From positions 1-64,000 of the forward strand of contig CALXKZ010000074.1 of NCBI GenBank assembly GCA_944389065.1: a DNA stretch of 64,000 nucleotides. Direction: 5' to 3'. The notes beneath the pieces were generated by a model, which saw only the letters and a list, made by a program, of their open reading frames with translations, was not told the origin of the DNA and made no database searches. Of the stretch, positions 6,545 through 45,593 are shown in pieces. Positions within the stretch are counted from its first letter, which is position 1. Every line of letters starts with the position of its first letter. Source of the stretch: an uncultured Spirochaetaceae bacterium (GTDB lineage: Bacteria; Spirochaetota; Spirochaetia; Sphaerochaetales; Sphaerochaetaceae). The translations under genes were made by a program, and so were the position numbers.

Positions 6545-7446
6545 GAAAGCGCCTCCTCCAGGACTTCGGCATTTCTTGCCATCAATGTCAGATAGGTCTC
6601 TCCTGCAAGGTAATCATTCAGTGTGATATTATGCATCGAATTGAATACCAGGACACCACAGCCTGCTTCTTCTGCTATCGTTCGCGCAATAAGAGCAGAT
6701 GATAGCTCTATATTCATGACATATCCCGCATCAATCTCCTTGGCCTTATCTATCAGGAAGGCGATCGTACGGGCACTCGGTTCTGTTTCCTCTGCACAGC
6801 CAGGGAATGCAGCATAATACTCCAGACCATACTCAGATACGAAATACAGAAGAGGGAAACGCGATGCGAATATAAGAGTATCCAGCCTTGATGCGGCAAC
6901 TATCTTCCTGATCTTCTCATCAAGCGCTTCAAGCTCTGCAATATAAGCATCTGCATTATGAAGAAACTCCTCAGCCCTTTCGCTGTCCAGAGAAATGAGG
7001 GCATCTGCGAGATTATTTATTATCGATATCTCATTCGGTATGCTCGTCCAGACGTGTTCATCAATTCCATGATGATGTCCTCTATCCTCCATTCCTTCCC
7101 TGCTCTCCTCGGAAAGAAGCTCAACCTGATCAATGAGACGGAAACAGAGCGGGGGATCATCAGATGCAGAAAGCAATCTGTCTACCCAGTCCTGTGAATG
7201 CCCACCTGTATATACAACGATATCAGCATCTGCGACTGCAATCATATCCTTGGGAGTCGGTTCGTAGCCATGACTCTCCACCCCTGGAGGAAGAAGCATC
7301 AGAATATCATCATCGTCTCCCATAATGGCCCGAAGAGCATCATAGGAAGGAAAATCCACGGCAACGGCAGAATACTGATGAGAACTGGCTGTACTGCATC
7401 CTGCAAGGACTGCCAGAGAGATGATGGCAAGCATGGAAAACCTCAT
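6541..7446 (-). CDS. znuA: Zinc-binding lipoprotein of the ABC transporter
   Basis: A 301-residue solute-binding lipoprotein (cluster A-I). The signal peptide ends in the lipobox LAGC near residue 16. Metal-binding candidates are the histidine in SHGYEPT, a short histidine-rich loop (GHHHG) followed by DEHVW, and a late acidic pocket. I chose the ATG at 7446 because it has GGAGG seven bases upstream and overlaps the regulator's TGA (ATGA). An upstream in-frame ATG at 7464 lacks a Shine-Dalgarno and would spoil the signal peptide. Confidence 0.9.
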   Translation of the reverse strand: MRFSMLAIISLAVLAGCSTASSHQYSAVAVDFPSYDALRAIMGDDDDILMLLPPGVESHGYEPTPKDMIAVADADIVVYTGGHSQDWVDRLLSASDDPPLCFRLIDQVELLSEESREGMEDRGHHHGIDEHVWTSIPNEISIINNLADALISLDSERAEEFLHNADAYIAELEALDEKIRKIVAASRLDTLIFASRFPLLYFVSEYGLEYYAAFPGCAEETEPSARTIAFLIDKAKEIDAGYVMNIELSSALIARTIAEEAGCGVLVFNSMHNITLNDYLAGETYLTLMARNAEVLEEALS

Positions 7447-7829
7447 TGTGCATCCTCCATGCAATCAGGGCATAATCCTTCCAGAATCGACGAGTTGAGA
7501 AGACGGAATCCAGAGGCCTTGCCTATCTGCTCGGAAATCGCGGCAGAGATTCTGTCGTCGATATGCATCATACGGCCGCATCGGACGCACTTTATATGGA
7601 AGTGCCCGGAGCAAAGCCCTGGATCACGATACTGGAAGACAGCTTCCTGACCGGATGGAACTTTCAGAAGATATCCATCCCTCATCAGCCGAGGGATCGC
7701 CCTGTATACAGTAGCCAATCCGATATCAGGAAGAAGGCCTGCAATTTCATGGGCAGTAAAGCTCTTCGAGGGATTCGACTCAAAAACCGAGAGTATCCTG
7801 GCGCGCTGCTTTGTATTGTATTCCTTCAC
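7443..7829 (-). CDS. zur: Fur-family metal regulator (probable Zur)
   Basis: A 128-residue Fur-family repressor. It has an N-terminal winged helix (helix region ATVYRAIPRL), the metal-site stretch HFHIKCVRCG and a second CPDC pair near the C-terminus, which together form the structural zinc site. It heads the znuACB-mgtC operon, which argues for zinc sensing. The start codon is GTG. There is no Shine-Dalgarno. The predicted transcription start falls within a few bases of the GTG, so the message is probably leaderless. The operator overlaps its own promoter, so autoregulation is likely. PerR or Fur activity cannot be excluded from sequence alone. Confidence 0.88.
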   Translation of the reverse strand: MKEYNTKQRARILSVFESNPSKSFTAHEIAGLLPDIGLATVYRAIPRLMRDGYLLKVPSGQEAVFQYRDPGLCSGHFHIKCVRCGRMMHIDDRISAAISEQIGKASGFRLLNSSILEGLCPDCMEDAQ

Positions 7830-7831
7830 GG

Positions 7832-7866
7832 AAAATGAGAATAATTCTCATTTTACAGAGCGTCAA
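7832..7866 (-). promoter_or_regulatory. zur-znu promoter with embedded 23-bp palindromic operator
   Basis: On the minus strand TTGACG (7861-7866), a 17-bp spacer and TATTCT (7838-7843). A perfect palindrome centred on 7843 covers 7832-7854. Its core is TGAGAAT-N-ATTCTCA, a 7-1-7 arrangement as in Fur/Zur/PerR boxes. It blankets the spacer and the -10. The -35 overlaps the stop codon of the upstream glycerophosphodiesterase gene. Confidence 0.85.
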
Positions 7867-8588
7867 CCCTCCTCGACAATCTTCCTTGCCCGCTCCGGAT
7901 AATTCGTTATAAGGCCATCCACATCCCAGGCCAGGCATTTTCTGATGCACTCATCATCGTTGACTGTCCATGCATTTATACCGCAGCTGCTCGCTTTCAG
8001 CTCACTCACAGCGCTGTCAGAAAGGAGGGAGTAATCAGGATGATAGTACTCCATGCCGATAGAATGTATAAGGCTGCCTATGTTGACAATGCGAGGAGAG
8101 GCAATCAGGAAACCGGAACGTATATCCGGATCCAGCTCTCTTGCACGGATGACAGAAAGCCAGTTGAATGAAGAGAAAATGATCCTGTCCTCCAAGGAGA
8201 ACCTCTGTATCAATCTGATTGTCTTCTCTTCGATCCCTGGATAGTAAACAGGTGCGGTCTTCAGCTCTATATTCGTATAAAGGCCAGTGTCCTTTACCCA
8301 CGAAAGATACTCTTCAAGAGAAGGAACAGGAGTAAAGCCGAATGCATCGTCCTTCGTTCTCCCTGCATTGGTCTTTTCCAGCTCGGCCCTTGTGCATTCC
8401 ATCAGAAGCTTCTTCATTCCTGCAGTACGCTCAAGGGATTCATCATGCATTATCATCACCTCACCATCCCTGGAGAGGTGGACATCCAGCTCAATTCCAT
8501 CGGCTCCGGCTTCGGCAGCCTTAATGAAAGAGAGCATCGTATTCTCGGGATAAGTCCCGCTCATGCCCCGGTGCGCAATAATGTCCAT
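7863..8588 (-). CDS. Glycerophosphodiester phosphodiesterase
   Basis: A 241-residue GDPD-family enzyme that hydrolyses glycerophosphodiesters from phospholipid turnover to glycerol-3-phosphate and an alcohol. It starts with IIAHRGMSG and PENT, followed by GADGIELDVHLSRDGE and MHDESLERT, which together supply the catalytic histidines and metal-binding acids. It ends with the usual AWTVND motif. There is no signal peptide, so it is probably cytoplasmic. The frame is open 26 codons further upstream, but the ATG at 8588 puts the domain at the very N-terminus and has a promoter directly in front of it. Confidence 0.9.
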   Translation of the reverse strand: MDIIAHRGMSGTYPENTMLSFIKAAEAGADGIELDVHLSRDGEVMIMHDESLERTAGMKKLLMECTRAELEKTNAGRTKDDAFGFTPVPSLEEYLSWVKDTGLYTNIELKTAPVYYPGIEEKTIRLIQRFSLEDRIIFSSFNWLSVIRARELDPDIRSGFLIASPRIVNIGSLIHSIGMEYYHPDYSLLSDSAVSELKASSCGINAWTVNDDECIRKCLAWDVDGLITNYPERARKIVEEG

Positions 8589-8594
8589 GCTTCT

Positions 8595-8623
8595 GGGATA
8601 GCAGAGAAAGGATCCTGTGGCAA
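8595..8623 (-). promoter_or_regulatory. Promoter of the glycerophosphodiesterase gene, leaderless type
   Basis: On the minus strand TTGCCA (8618-8623), 17-bp spacer with an extended TG-C, and TATCCC (8595-8600). This ends six bases before the ATG at 8588. Confidence 0.6.
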
Positions 8624-43298: not shown

Positions 43299-43724
43299 TT
43301 AATTGCTCTTCTTGAGAAGATCTCTGATCTCAGTAAGAAGCTGGATATCTGCAGGAGGAGCTGCAGGAGCTGCTGGCTTTGCCTCCTCTTCATGCTTCTT
43401 CAGATCATGAAGCTTGTTGAAGCCCTTCACTACGCAGAATACACAGAAAGCAATTACGATGAAGCTGATGATCGCATTGATGAAGATGCCGTATCTGATA
43501 GCGACTTCAGGATCAGCCTCTGTAGCTGCCTTGAGAACGATCTTGAGATCAGAGAAATCAATTCCTCCGATTGCAAGTCCAATGACAGGCATGATGATAT
43601 CATTGACAGCGGAAGTCACGATTGCTGTGAATGCAGCACCAACAACCATACCTACTGCCATATCGAGCACATTTCCACGTGCGATGAACTTTCTGAACTC
43701 AGCAAAGAATCCAGTGTCTTTCAT
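43299..43724 (-). CDS. mscL: Large-conductance mechanosensitive channel
   Basis: A 141-residue MscL that opens under membrane tension to release solutes on hypo-osmotic shock. The N-terminal helix and pore segment FRKFIARGNVLDMAVGMVVG (residues 10-29) are classic. TM2 lies about 78-102, and the C-terminal helical bundle begins near 125 after an alanine/proline linker. The length is normal. The ATG follows AAGGAA. Confidence 0.96.
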   Translation of the reverse strand: MKDTGFFAEFRKFIARGNVLDMAVGMVVGAAFTAIVTSAVNDIIMPVIGLAIGGIDFSDLKIVLKAATEADPEVAIRYGIFINAIISFIVIAFCVFCVVKGFNKLHDLKKHEEEAKPAAPAAPPADIQLLTEIRDLLKKSN

Positions 43725-43810
43725 GTTTATATTTCCTTATTTATTTAAGAATTCCTTGGTGAGTATATTGATTATCAAAGACTTTGGGAAGTACTGCTGC
43801 AAAATACATC

Positions 43811-43839
43811 TTCACACAATCTTCATATATCATTATGCT
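43811..43839 (+). promoter_or_regulatory. Promoter of the HTH/channel-like gene pair
   Basis: TTCACA (43811-43816), 17-bp spacer and TATGCT (43834-43839), nine bases before the ATG at 43849. No Shine-Dalgarno, so the leader would be at most two or three bases. Confidence 0.5.
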
Positions 43840-43848
43840 TGATGCCTT

Positions 43849-44235
43849 ATGCAGAATATTGGACATAGAACAACGGAGAAGCTCAGGAAGCTCTCCAGAT
43901 TTATTGAGGAAAAGCATGGAATAACCTTAGCCCGTGCCATTTCAGAGAATCCTGCGAAGATCGCTGACATACTTTCCGGCAAGGAAAGCCCGACCAGAAA
44001 GATCTGCACAAAGGTTGCCGCATACTTCTTTATTCCGGTGGATATCATCATAGATGATACGAAGGAACTGCCGGAGCTTGATCAGCTCAAGGTCGACGAG
44101 GATCTTCTCTCAATACAGCGCAATGACCTCGAGAATGATATAGAAAGGGAGAAGCAGAAGCACTTCTTCTCTCGCAACTGGAGGATGATCGGATACAGGA
44201 AGCGTGTCAGTCTCGTGCTCTCAATCTTGTCATAA
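43849..44235 (+). CDS. XRE-like HTH protein with linker, forming the N-terminal part of a split membrane receptor
   Basis: 128 residues. About residues 10-70 resemble a Cro/C1-type helix-turn-helix (KIADILSGKESPTRKICTKV, then a YFFIPVDIIIDD tail). A charged, probably coiled-coil linker follows (about 80-105) and then a basic segment leading into the hydrophobic stub VSLVLSILS, where the frame stops. The stub is too short to span a membrane. The next gene starts at the stop (TAATG, -1 frame) with the missing half of the helix. Either the two are one protein broken by a frameshift or joined by ribosomal frameshifting, or they are two coupled subunits. Confidence 0.72.
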   Translation: MQNIGHRTTEKLRKLSRFIEEKHGITLARAISENPAKIADILSGKESPTRKICTKVAAYFFIPVDIIIDDTKELPELDQLKVDEDLLSIQRNDLENDIEREKQKHFFSRNWRMIGYRKRVSLVLSILS

Positions 44236-45593
44236 TGGTTCCTCTTATTGCATTCATCCTTTTCTGTGCATCAGAAGTGGCATATGAGCGCTTTGATGAT
44301 ATCCGCAAATACAGAATAGGCAGCGATGGCCTGGAATATGACATCCATGACCCGATACAGAAGAAGTACCACGATGATCTGGAAGGAACATCAAAGGCAA
44401 ATAATCCGGATGCGTACTATGTTGAAGTCACAGTAGGAACAGTTCTCGAGAAGATCAAGAATATCCACTCGGAGACATCTTCCTATGAGGCAAGGATGCA
44501 GCTTTTCTTCAAGTTCGATAAGGATGAGTTCCGCAATATGTTCCGCCACTATGCAAGGAATGTGCTTGCTGATCAGATAATCGATGCATACTATGCTGAG
44601 AGCGATGAGAGAAGACCAGCTGGGACATTCTCCCATGATGAATGGCTCGACAGCCACTCAGAGTTCTTCGAGGAATGGATAGACTCCCATGATCATGAGT
44701 ACTATCCGGGAGAGACTCCTTCCAACGTCTTCACCGATAAGGAAACGATGTTCACGCTCGGGAATGGCGAGTTCGTACCTGACTCAATGGGTGTCCTGAA
44801 GGAGCTGGAAGAGGTACAGTACTATGATGAGGAAGGAAATCTCCGTACCATGTGCTATCAGAAGATAAGATTCAACGGGGCATTCGAGAAAGCCTTCGAC
44901 AGTGTCAGGTATCCGCTTGATTCCGTCCAGTTCAAGATGTACATCCTTCCGACTATGGATGCTGACTACATCAGATATGCACCAGATACATCAACCGATT
45001 CAGATGGTGTACGCGTAAGCGGATTCACACCGTATTTCGGAATAACATCAGGATACAGGCTCATCCATGATACAGAGACCATGGATAATTTCACGCTGCG
45101 TCTGAATTACTTCTACGATACGAACAACGATCCAGCTGTGCACTTCGATGAATCTGTAAGGACCCAGCTTGAGATAATAGTCAGGGCCAACAGAACAGGC
45201 ATCTCGCTCTTCCTGCAGGCTTTCATCAACCTCTTCAGCGTTGTCATATGGATCATCATCGCATTCTACAGCCAGAGCTATACAGGAGAAGACAGCGTCG
45301 GAATGCTTGGAACGGGACTGTTTGGTGTCATATCCTCCATGCTTGTCGGACTGTCGATGGTATCGGATGCAGGCATATTCTCCCTGATAACGATGATAAA
45401 CATATTCACGCTTGCCGTCATAATGATAATGACATATCAGGCGATAGCCGCAAAACGGGCCCAGGTAAAAAAGGACAAGGTCCTGATTGCCTACAATGGC
45501 ATAAAGCTCAGAGTGCTGTTCATCACTCTCACGATCTGTACCATTGCGATGTTTGTAGTGATTCCGGCTCTTGCCTATATGTGGGGAGTCTGA
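44235..45593 (+). CDS. Pentameric ligand-gated ion channel-like membrane protein
   Basis: 452 residues. A short hydrophobic start (about 12 residues) is followed by about 300 residues of mainly beta-type periplasmic domain and four hydrophobic helices (about 322-345, 355-377, 380-402, 424-449). RYPLDSVQFKMYI at 225-237 closely recalls the Pro-loop of bacterial channels such as GLIC (RYPFDSQ). The IVR-x-x-R-x-G-I-S-L entry into the first of these helices, the long charged M3-M4 loop and the outward C-terminus also fit that family. This is pattern reading, not a search result. There is no Shine-Dalgarno, so translation depends on the upstream HTH frame. A non-channel sensor with this fold remains possible. 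Confidence 0.65.
   Translation: MVPLIAFILFCASEVAYERFDDIRKYRIGSDGLEYDIHDPIQKKYHDDLEGTSKANNPDAYYVEVTVGTVLEKIKNIHSETSSYEARMQLFFKFDKDEFRNMFRHYARNVLADQIIDAYYAESDERRPAGTFSHDEWLDSHSEFFEEWIDSHDHEYYPGETPSNVFTDKETMFTLGNGEFVPDSMGVLKELEEVQYYDEEGNLRTMCYQKIRFNGAFEKAFDSVRYPLDSVQFKMYILPTMDADYIRYAPDTSTDSDGVRVSGFTPYFGITSGYRLIHDTETMDNFTLRLNYFYDTNNDPAVHFDESVRTQLEIIVRANRTGISLFLQAFINLFSVVIWIIIAFYSQSYTGEDSVGMLGTGLFGVISSMLVGLSMVSDAGIFSLITMINIFTLAVIMIMTYQAIAAKRAQVKKDKVLIAYNGIKLRVLFITLTICTIAMFVVIPALAYMWGV

Follow-up and report, generated by a model that had tools for sequence, protein, structure and literature searches.

The window, i.e., the whole 64,000-nucleotide stretch of DNA analyzed here, belongs to a 2.3-Mb draft genome of an uncultured Spirochaetaceae bacterium and contains two overlapping genes on the forward strand. 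The first gene (ORF1, positions 43849–44235, 128 aa) encodes a helix-turn-helix (HTH) domain of the XRE/Cro type (approximately residues 1–72), a basic linker, and the first half of a membrane helix, termed TM0. The second gene (ORF2, positions 44235–45593, 452 aa) encodes the remainder of TM0, an extracellular domain of the pentameric ligand-gated ion channel (pLGIC) type, and four further membrane helices, M1–M4. As described in the earlier note on this DNA, the two genes share a TAATG overlap, ORF2 being read in the −1 frame.

We surveyed 139 genomes of the family and found the gene in 20 of them, confined to two of 22 genera. The homologues in the 19 other genomes show 77–98% identity to the window copy; these relatives are known from MAGs of uncultured Spirochaetales, and two carry the name Candidatus Ornithospirochaeta. 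Frame and stop counts over the 20 copies gave 12 continuous and eight disrupted genes, all 12 continuous frames being among the 19 relatives. A scan of the genome contigs yielded 18 loci, including the 12 continuous frames of ~581 aa. Same-genus homologues are present in eight genomes, and seven of them are continuous, with no gap at the position of the ORF1/ORF2 junction. A canonical start codon was found in 11 of the 12 continuous frames. The exception is L025 (position 5689), whose continuous frame has neither ATG nor GTG nor TTG where the conserved start would be; this reflects either an alternative start codon or a further lesion. The unsplit product comprises, in this order, the XRE/Cro-type HTH, the linker, TM0, the pLGIC extracellular domain, and the four membrane helices. 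The joining of an HTH regulator to a pLGIC-like receptor, proposed in the earlier note from the two window genes, is therefore found as a single fused protein in 12 relatives from two genera, and the HTH–pLGIC family of uncultured gut spirochaetes is confirmed as real and more than a product of chance.

A search of the phylum with GLIC (the sequence used is identical to PDB chain 8i41_A) produced 22 ordinary Spirochaetota pLGIC hits, and a profile was built from 19 independent pLGICs together with GLIC. The window ORF2 matches this profile (hmmsearch, E 1.4e-13), as do all intact copies (6e-18 to 3e-11), with almost nothing among other ORFs. The comparison of the whole family with the pLGIC profile by hhalign gave a match of 97% probability (E 1.2e-10) that extends from the outer domain through M1 into the beginning of M2. 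The outer domain alone matched with 94.6% probability (E 7e-8, score 53), whereas 60 column shuffles reached a score of at most 27 and reversed profiles gave nothing; likewise, 144 unrelated ORFs used as decoys scored at most 24 by hhalign, against 62–89 in the genuine comparisons. Since the E-values come from small searches, it is these controls that carry the homology argument, and the membership of the outer domain in the pLGIC/Pro-loop receptor superfamily, as initially assigned to the second gene, is well supported. The Pro-loop motif Y/FPxD, considered the single best marker of the superfamily (PMC4795631), is represented by FDSVRYPLDSV at positions 44895–44927 of the forward strand. Its RYPLDS core is invariant in all copies that cover it and aligns with RYPFDS within GLIC RRYPFDSQ; the RYPLDSV previously noticed near residue 225 corresponds to ORF2 residues 225–231. 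Between its beta2-like and beta3-like regions, the extracellular domain carries a mostly helical insertion (44520–44747, forward strand), which hhalign leaves unaligned to the pLGIC profile and which is helical in the AF2 models, with a local pLDDT of 73–87 for part of it. We give practically no credence to the resemblance having arisen by chance from a short motif combined with membrane helices: the membrane domain alone has no hhalign match to the pLGIC profile, and neither Pfam nor NCBIfam names a channel family for the protein, but the match rests on the outer domain, is collinear from beta1 to M2, and stands far above shuffles, reversals, and decoys, while an ordinary pLGIC (L043) is equally missed by Pfam.

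The split of the window copy is located at positions 44221–44237 of the forward strand, where the TAATG junction falls inside TM0. Compared with the sister copy L024 and every unsplit relative, the window copy has a one-base deletion near position 44226; the split is a lesion of this one copy rather than a trait of the family. The earlier note had treated the split as a meaningful feature and the first membrane helix as shared by both frames; it is true that the window copy cuts TM0 in two, but the intact relatives have one full TM0, and the lesions differ among the disrupted copies. Specifically, the sister copy is disrupted by a two-base difference upstream, stops occur in L026 and L033, a stretch is lost in L035, and L039 combines an insertion with a frameshift. 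The inserted element in the latter genome is an IS605 OrfB/TnpB gene (L039, positions 6923–8611). Assembly error was rejected as a general cause of the broken copies, since two control genes in these genomes, one UxuB-like (18 copies) and the other TolC-like (24 hits), are free of internal stops. The intact control genes together with the dissimilar lesions indicate that the HTH–channel gene is often lost, and that the window copy is a recent loss; high gene loss was also suggested by the sparse distribution of pLGICs in a 2016 survey (PMC4795631). A programmed frameshift was likewise rejected, and a working two-protein system with translation coupled at the TAATG is extremely unlikely: the overlap of ORF1 and ORF2 and the 98% identity of ORF2 to the sister copy are compatible with such a system, but the junction has no slippery heptamer, 12 relatives are unsplit, the sister species is broken at another place, and two separate proteins would leave TM0 halved. 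The recently frameshifted window copy probably does not work as the intact fusion would. At most, it could give rise to a cut-off HTH piece and, upon reinitiation at the TAATG, to a channel whose first helix is truncated.

The membrane domain (45198–45581, forward strand) consists of M1 (45198–45266), M2 (45291–45356), M3 (45375–45440), and M4 (45513–45581). These four C-terminal helices, predicted in the earlier note to follow the outer domain, are seen both as hydropathy peaks (2.4, 1.8, 2.4, and 2.75, respectively) and as helices by AF2. The N-terminus of ORF2 is hydrophobic as well. Among the intact relatives, TM0 reaches a peak hydropathy of 2.98. Its inner flank contains seven K/R but lacks D/E, predicting that the HTH is inside the cell. 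A cysteine in TM0 (residue 140 in L037 numbering) is kept in all copies that cover it and has no lipobox-like context.

The sequence of M1, SLFLQAFINLFSVVIWIIIAFY, has Asn where the superfamily proline aligns, and the family thus lacks the M1 proline, the most conserved, though not absolute, transmembrane position of the superfamily. The M2–M3 proline is also absent, and the basic residue at M2 0′, present in 79% of superfamily members but missing from GLIC too, is replaced by Ser (EDSVGM). In the register set by hhalign, the M2 positions −2′, 6′, and 9′ are Glu, Thr, and Phe, and Phe at 9′ is found in 13% of the superfamily (PMC4795631). The median dN of M1–M3 is 0.023 with dS above 1, i.e., with saturated synonymous sites, and their pN/pS is 0.04 versus 0.39 for the HTH; M1–M3 are the most constrained part of the protein and the HTH is the fastest-evolving one. 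Such a low dN despite synonymous saturation argues that the membrane domain is functionally constrained, though unlike the textbook gating elements. From homology, we infer that the protein forms a pentamer and conducts ions. Alternatively, the protein could be a one-component regulator tethered to the membrane like ToxR or CadC, its pLGIC part still sensing but no longer conducting. The loss of both prolines and of the basic M2 0′ residue, as well as the lack of a family-wide match for the membrane domain, would fit this scenario, but a plain anchor would not need its M1–M3, including the pore-lining face of M2 (Glu −2′, Thr 6′, Phe 9′), to be the most constrained part, and we consider loss of conduction quite unlikely. 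With its near-invariant, proline-less M1–M3, this presumed channel can be used to probe which of the pLGIC gating features are indispensable.

The AF2 model of an intact fused homologue has a pLDDT of 52 and pTM of 0.29 overall, with a pLDDT of 75–86 over residues 1–80, and the model of the outer and membrane domains has a pLDDT of 44; both low-confidence models are too poor to display the channel fold. A Foldseek search with the former model placed DeCLIC, GLIC, sTeLIC, and GABA-A receptors near the top beside XRE regulators, at E-values of only 0.07–0.2. VIA-align matched the N-terminus to SinR, 434 Cro, P22 c2, and HigA over 60–75 residues with Z of 5.8–7.3; a Z under 8 can reflect a common arrangement, but the N-terminal matches are almost all from one family. 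The N-terminus has a five-helix HTH fold with a recognition helix. Sequence searches also point weakly toward XRE/Cro, with a sub-threshold match to Pfam HTH_3 (17.2 bits versus a cut-off of 23; best E 0.0029 among family members), and PADLOC returned only a weak generic HTH match. By fold match, weak sequence matches, and its basic linker, the upstream region thus agrees with the XRE-like HTH and linker recognized previously. The recognition helix reads SQSRM or SESKI in the copies from the second genus (L029, L030, and L031) and N/S-P-x-K/R-M/I in the others.

Upstream of ORF1, we identified a conserved 19-bp element, TCTTCACACAATCTTCATA, at positions 43809–43827 of the forward strand, a candidate operator. 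It contains a direct repeat of ATCTTCA (43808–43814 and 43819–43825) with a period of 11 bp and overlaps the −35 box and spacer of a predicted sigma70-type promoter (43811–43839, forward strand; −35 TTCACA at 43811–43816, 17-bp spacer, −10 TATGCT at 43834–43839). The predicted −10 box ends ~9 bases before the ATG, which leaves ORF1 without a leader, and the mRNA is probably leaderless, judging from this inferred start site. The motif TCTTCAnAnAATCTTCATA was found in 11 of the 16 copies tested, with zero to two mismatches and at −37 to −42 relative to the start, whereas the best shuffle had four to five mismatches; in L028, the element is at −26 from the listed start, or at about −38 if the next ATG is the start. 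Information content is ~1.8 bits per base inside the element and mostly 0.1–0.7 outside it, and the aligned copies retain TATnnT at element offset +25 to +30. Conservation is higher in the part of the spacer occupied by the element than in the −10 box, unlike what a plain promoter would show. The 11 element-bearing copies span about eight different neighbourhoods, and their upstream regions beyond about −45 are unalignable. The element is kept across these unrelated surroundings even with synonymous sites saturated.

With one mismatch allowed, the full element precedes the gene in seven genomes of the genus, and members of the genus without the gene do not have it; beyond these, the genus has just two matches, both in a single genome (G009). 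As few chance matches are expected for a 19-mer, this distribution shows that there is no strict regulon and does not demonstrate specificity. The repeat, allowing one mismatch, has 4–10 sites per genome with the gene versus 2–9 in those without, i.e., no excess beyond its own site. With no further target genes found, a sensory regulon is unsupported. The three second-genus copies, which differ in their recognition helix, are without the element; this correlation, drawn from two or three lineages, is suggestive only. Taken as sequence evidence, the conserved element on the gene's own promoter supports the predicted DNA binding by the HTH at that one site. A minor but real possibility is that the HTH-like domain binds a protein, as that of RodZ does, and serves to anchor or gate the channel from the cytoplasmic side, the element belonging to another regulator. 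Such a role would be in line with the highest amino-acid change rate of the protein falling in the HTH, its sub-threshold family matches, and the absence of additional element sites in the genomes. Against it, the element is kept in about eight neighbourhoods at the HTH–channel gene and apparently at no other gene, and it is missing where the recognition helix differs; the VIA-align matches also include many DNA-bound repressors, though a shared fold alone shows no function.

The gene is solitary in about ten neighbourhoods, and no conserved operon partners were found across the neighbourhoods compared. In the window, an MscL gene (43299–43724, Pfam E 4e-45) is divergent from it; since MscL adjoins the gene only in the window and the sister copy, it is not a conserved partner. 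The identity of ORF2 to the window copy is 84–85% in the second genus, as compared with 77–80% in some same-genus copies, whereas in the same comparison the UxuB-like gene shows 60–61% identity between genera and 67–76% within the genus. This reversal suggests a transfer of the HTH–channel gene between the genera. No plasmid, phage, or viral homologues of the gene were found, and a GLIC search of plasmids was likewise negative.

The mechanism that we propose starts from the observed fusion in 12 relatives, the pLGIC homology, the XRE-like N-terminal fold, the purifying selection strongest on M1–M3, and the promoter element. A solitary gene would encode a cytoplasmic HTH, a linker, TM0, and a divergent four-helix pLGIC, with the HTHs binding their own promoter so that the channel controls its own expression, a scenario to which we assign about an even chance. 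Subunits would assemble into a homopentamer, presenting five tethered HTH domains on the inner face of the membrane; these would bind the direct repeat over the −35 box and spacer, and the channel would thereby govern its own promoter. The assembly could change when a ligand or ion acts on the outer domain, leading to pore opening, altered HTH presentation, or both. Autoregulation is the best-supported mechanism, albeit an inferential one. A bolder version is conceivable but doubtful, namely that a channel of the neurotransmitter-receptor superfamily acts as its own transcription regulator, in which a five-HTH ring reads the repeat and channel state or number feeds back, the whole being a horizontally moving one-gene unit. 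As of 2016, not one of the pLGICs from unicellular organisms had a known biological role or had been investigated in vivo (PMC4795631). Through the fusion, bacteria may couple a channel to gene control, and a pLGIC wired to a DNA-binding-type domain with a candidate operator is directly accessible to genetics: the activity of the receptor could be read from reporter and binding assays before its ligand is identified.

Among known regulators, ToxR and CadC combine a cytoplasmic DNA-binding-type domain, a membrane helix, and an extracytoplasmic sensor-like domain in one chain. They have a winged HTH and a single transmembrane helix, whereas the HTH–channel family has an XRE-type HTH, five transmembrane helices, and a channel-family receptor. 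RodZ possesses an XRE-like HTH, serving as a protein-binding domain, N-terminal to a single transmembrane helix, and, in contrast to the HTH–channel family, has neither a channel nor a pLGIC outer domain. Like GLIC, ELIC, sTeLIC, and DeCLIC, the HTH–channel proteins have a beta-rich outer domain with the Y/FPxD Pro-loop followed by four membrane helices, and they share with prokaryotic pLGICs a short M3–M4 loop, a predicted outward C-terminus, and the Phe at M2 9′. Unlike those channels, they carry a cytoplasmic XRE-type HTH, TM0 in place of a signal peptide, a helical outer-domain insertion, and Ser at M2 0′, and they lack the M1 and M2–M3 prolines. No HTH–pLGIC fusion was found in the literature searched, which was limited to open access, and its novelty is thus likely rather than certain. 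The 2004 prokaryotic survey (PMC549065) describes added PBP-I, MCP-N, and Cache domains between the signal peptide and the ligand-binding domain, and PBP-II only as a neighbouring gene. Three ordinary Spirochaetota pLGICs (L048, L051, and L060) have an SBP_bac_5 (PBP-II) solute-binding domain fused behind M4 (E 4e-43 to 4e-37), and three others from this phylum (L053, L058, and L061) have an N-terminal Peripla_BP_6 (PBP-I) domain, as in other bacteria. The added domains in both pLGIC surveys (PMC549065 and PMC4795631) are all extracytoplasmic, and the N-terminal domain of DeCLIC is an extracellular addition as well (PMC12664993). In the PBP-I, MCP-N/Cache, and DeCLIC fusions, the extra domain is N-terminal to the receptor, as in the HTH–channel family, but it lies outside the cell, whereas the extra domain of the HTH–channel family is predicted to be inside and is of a DNA-binding type.
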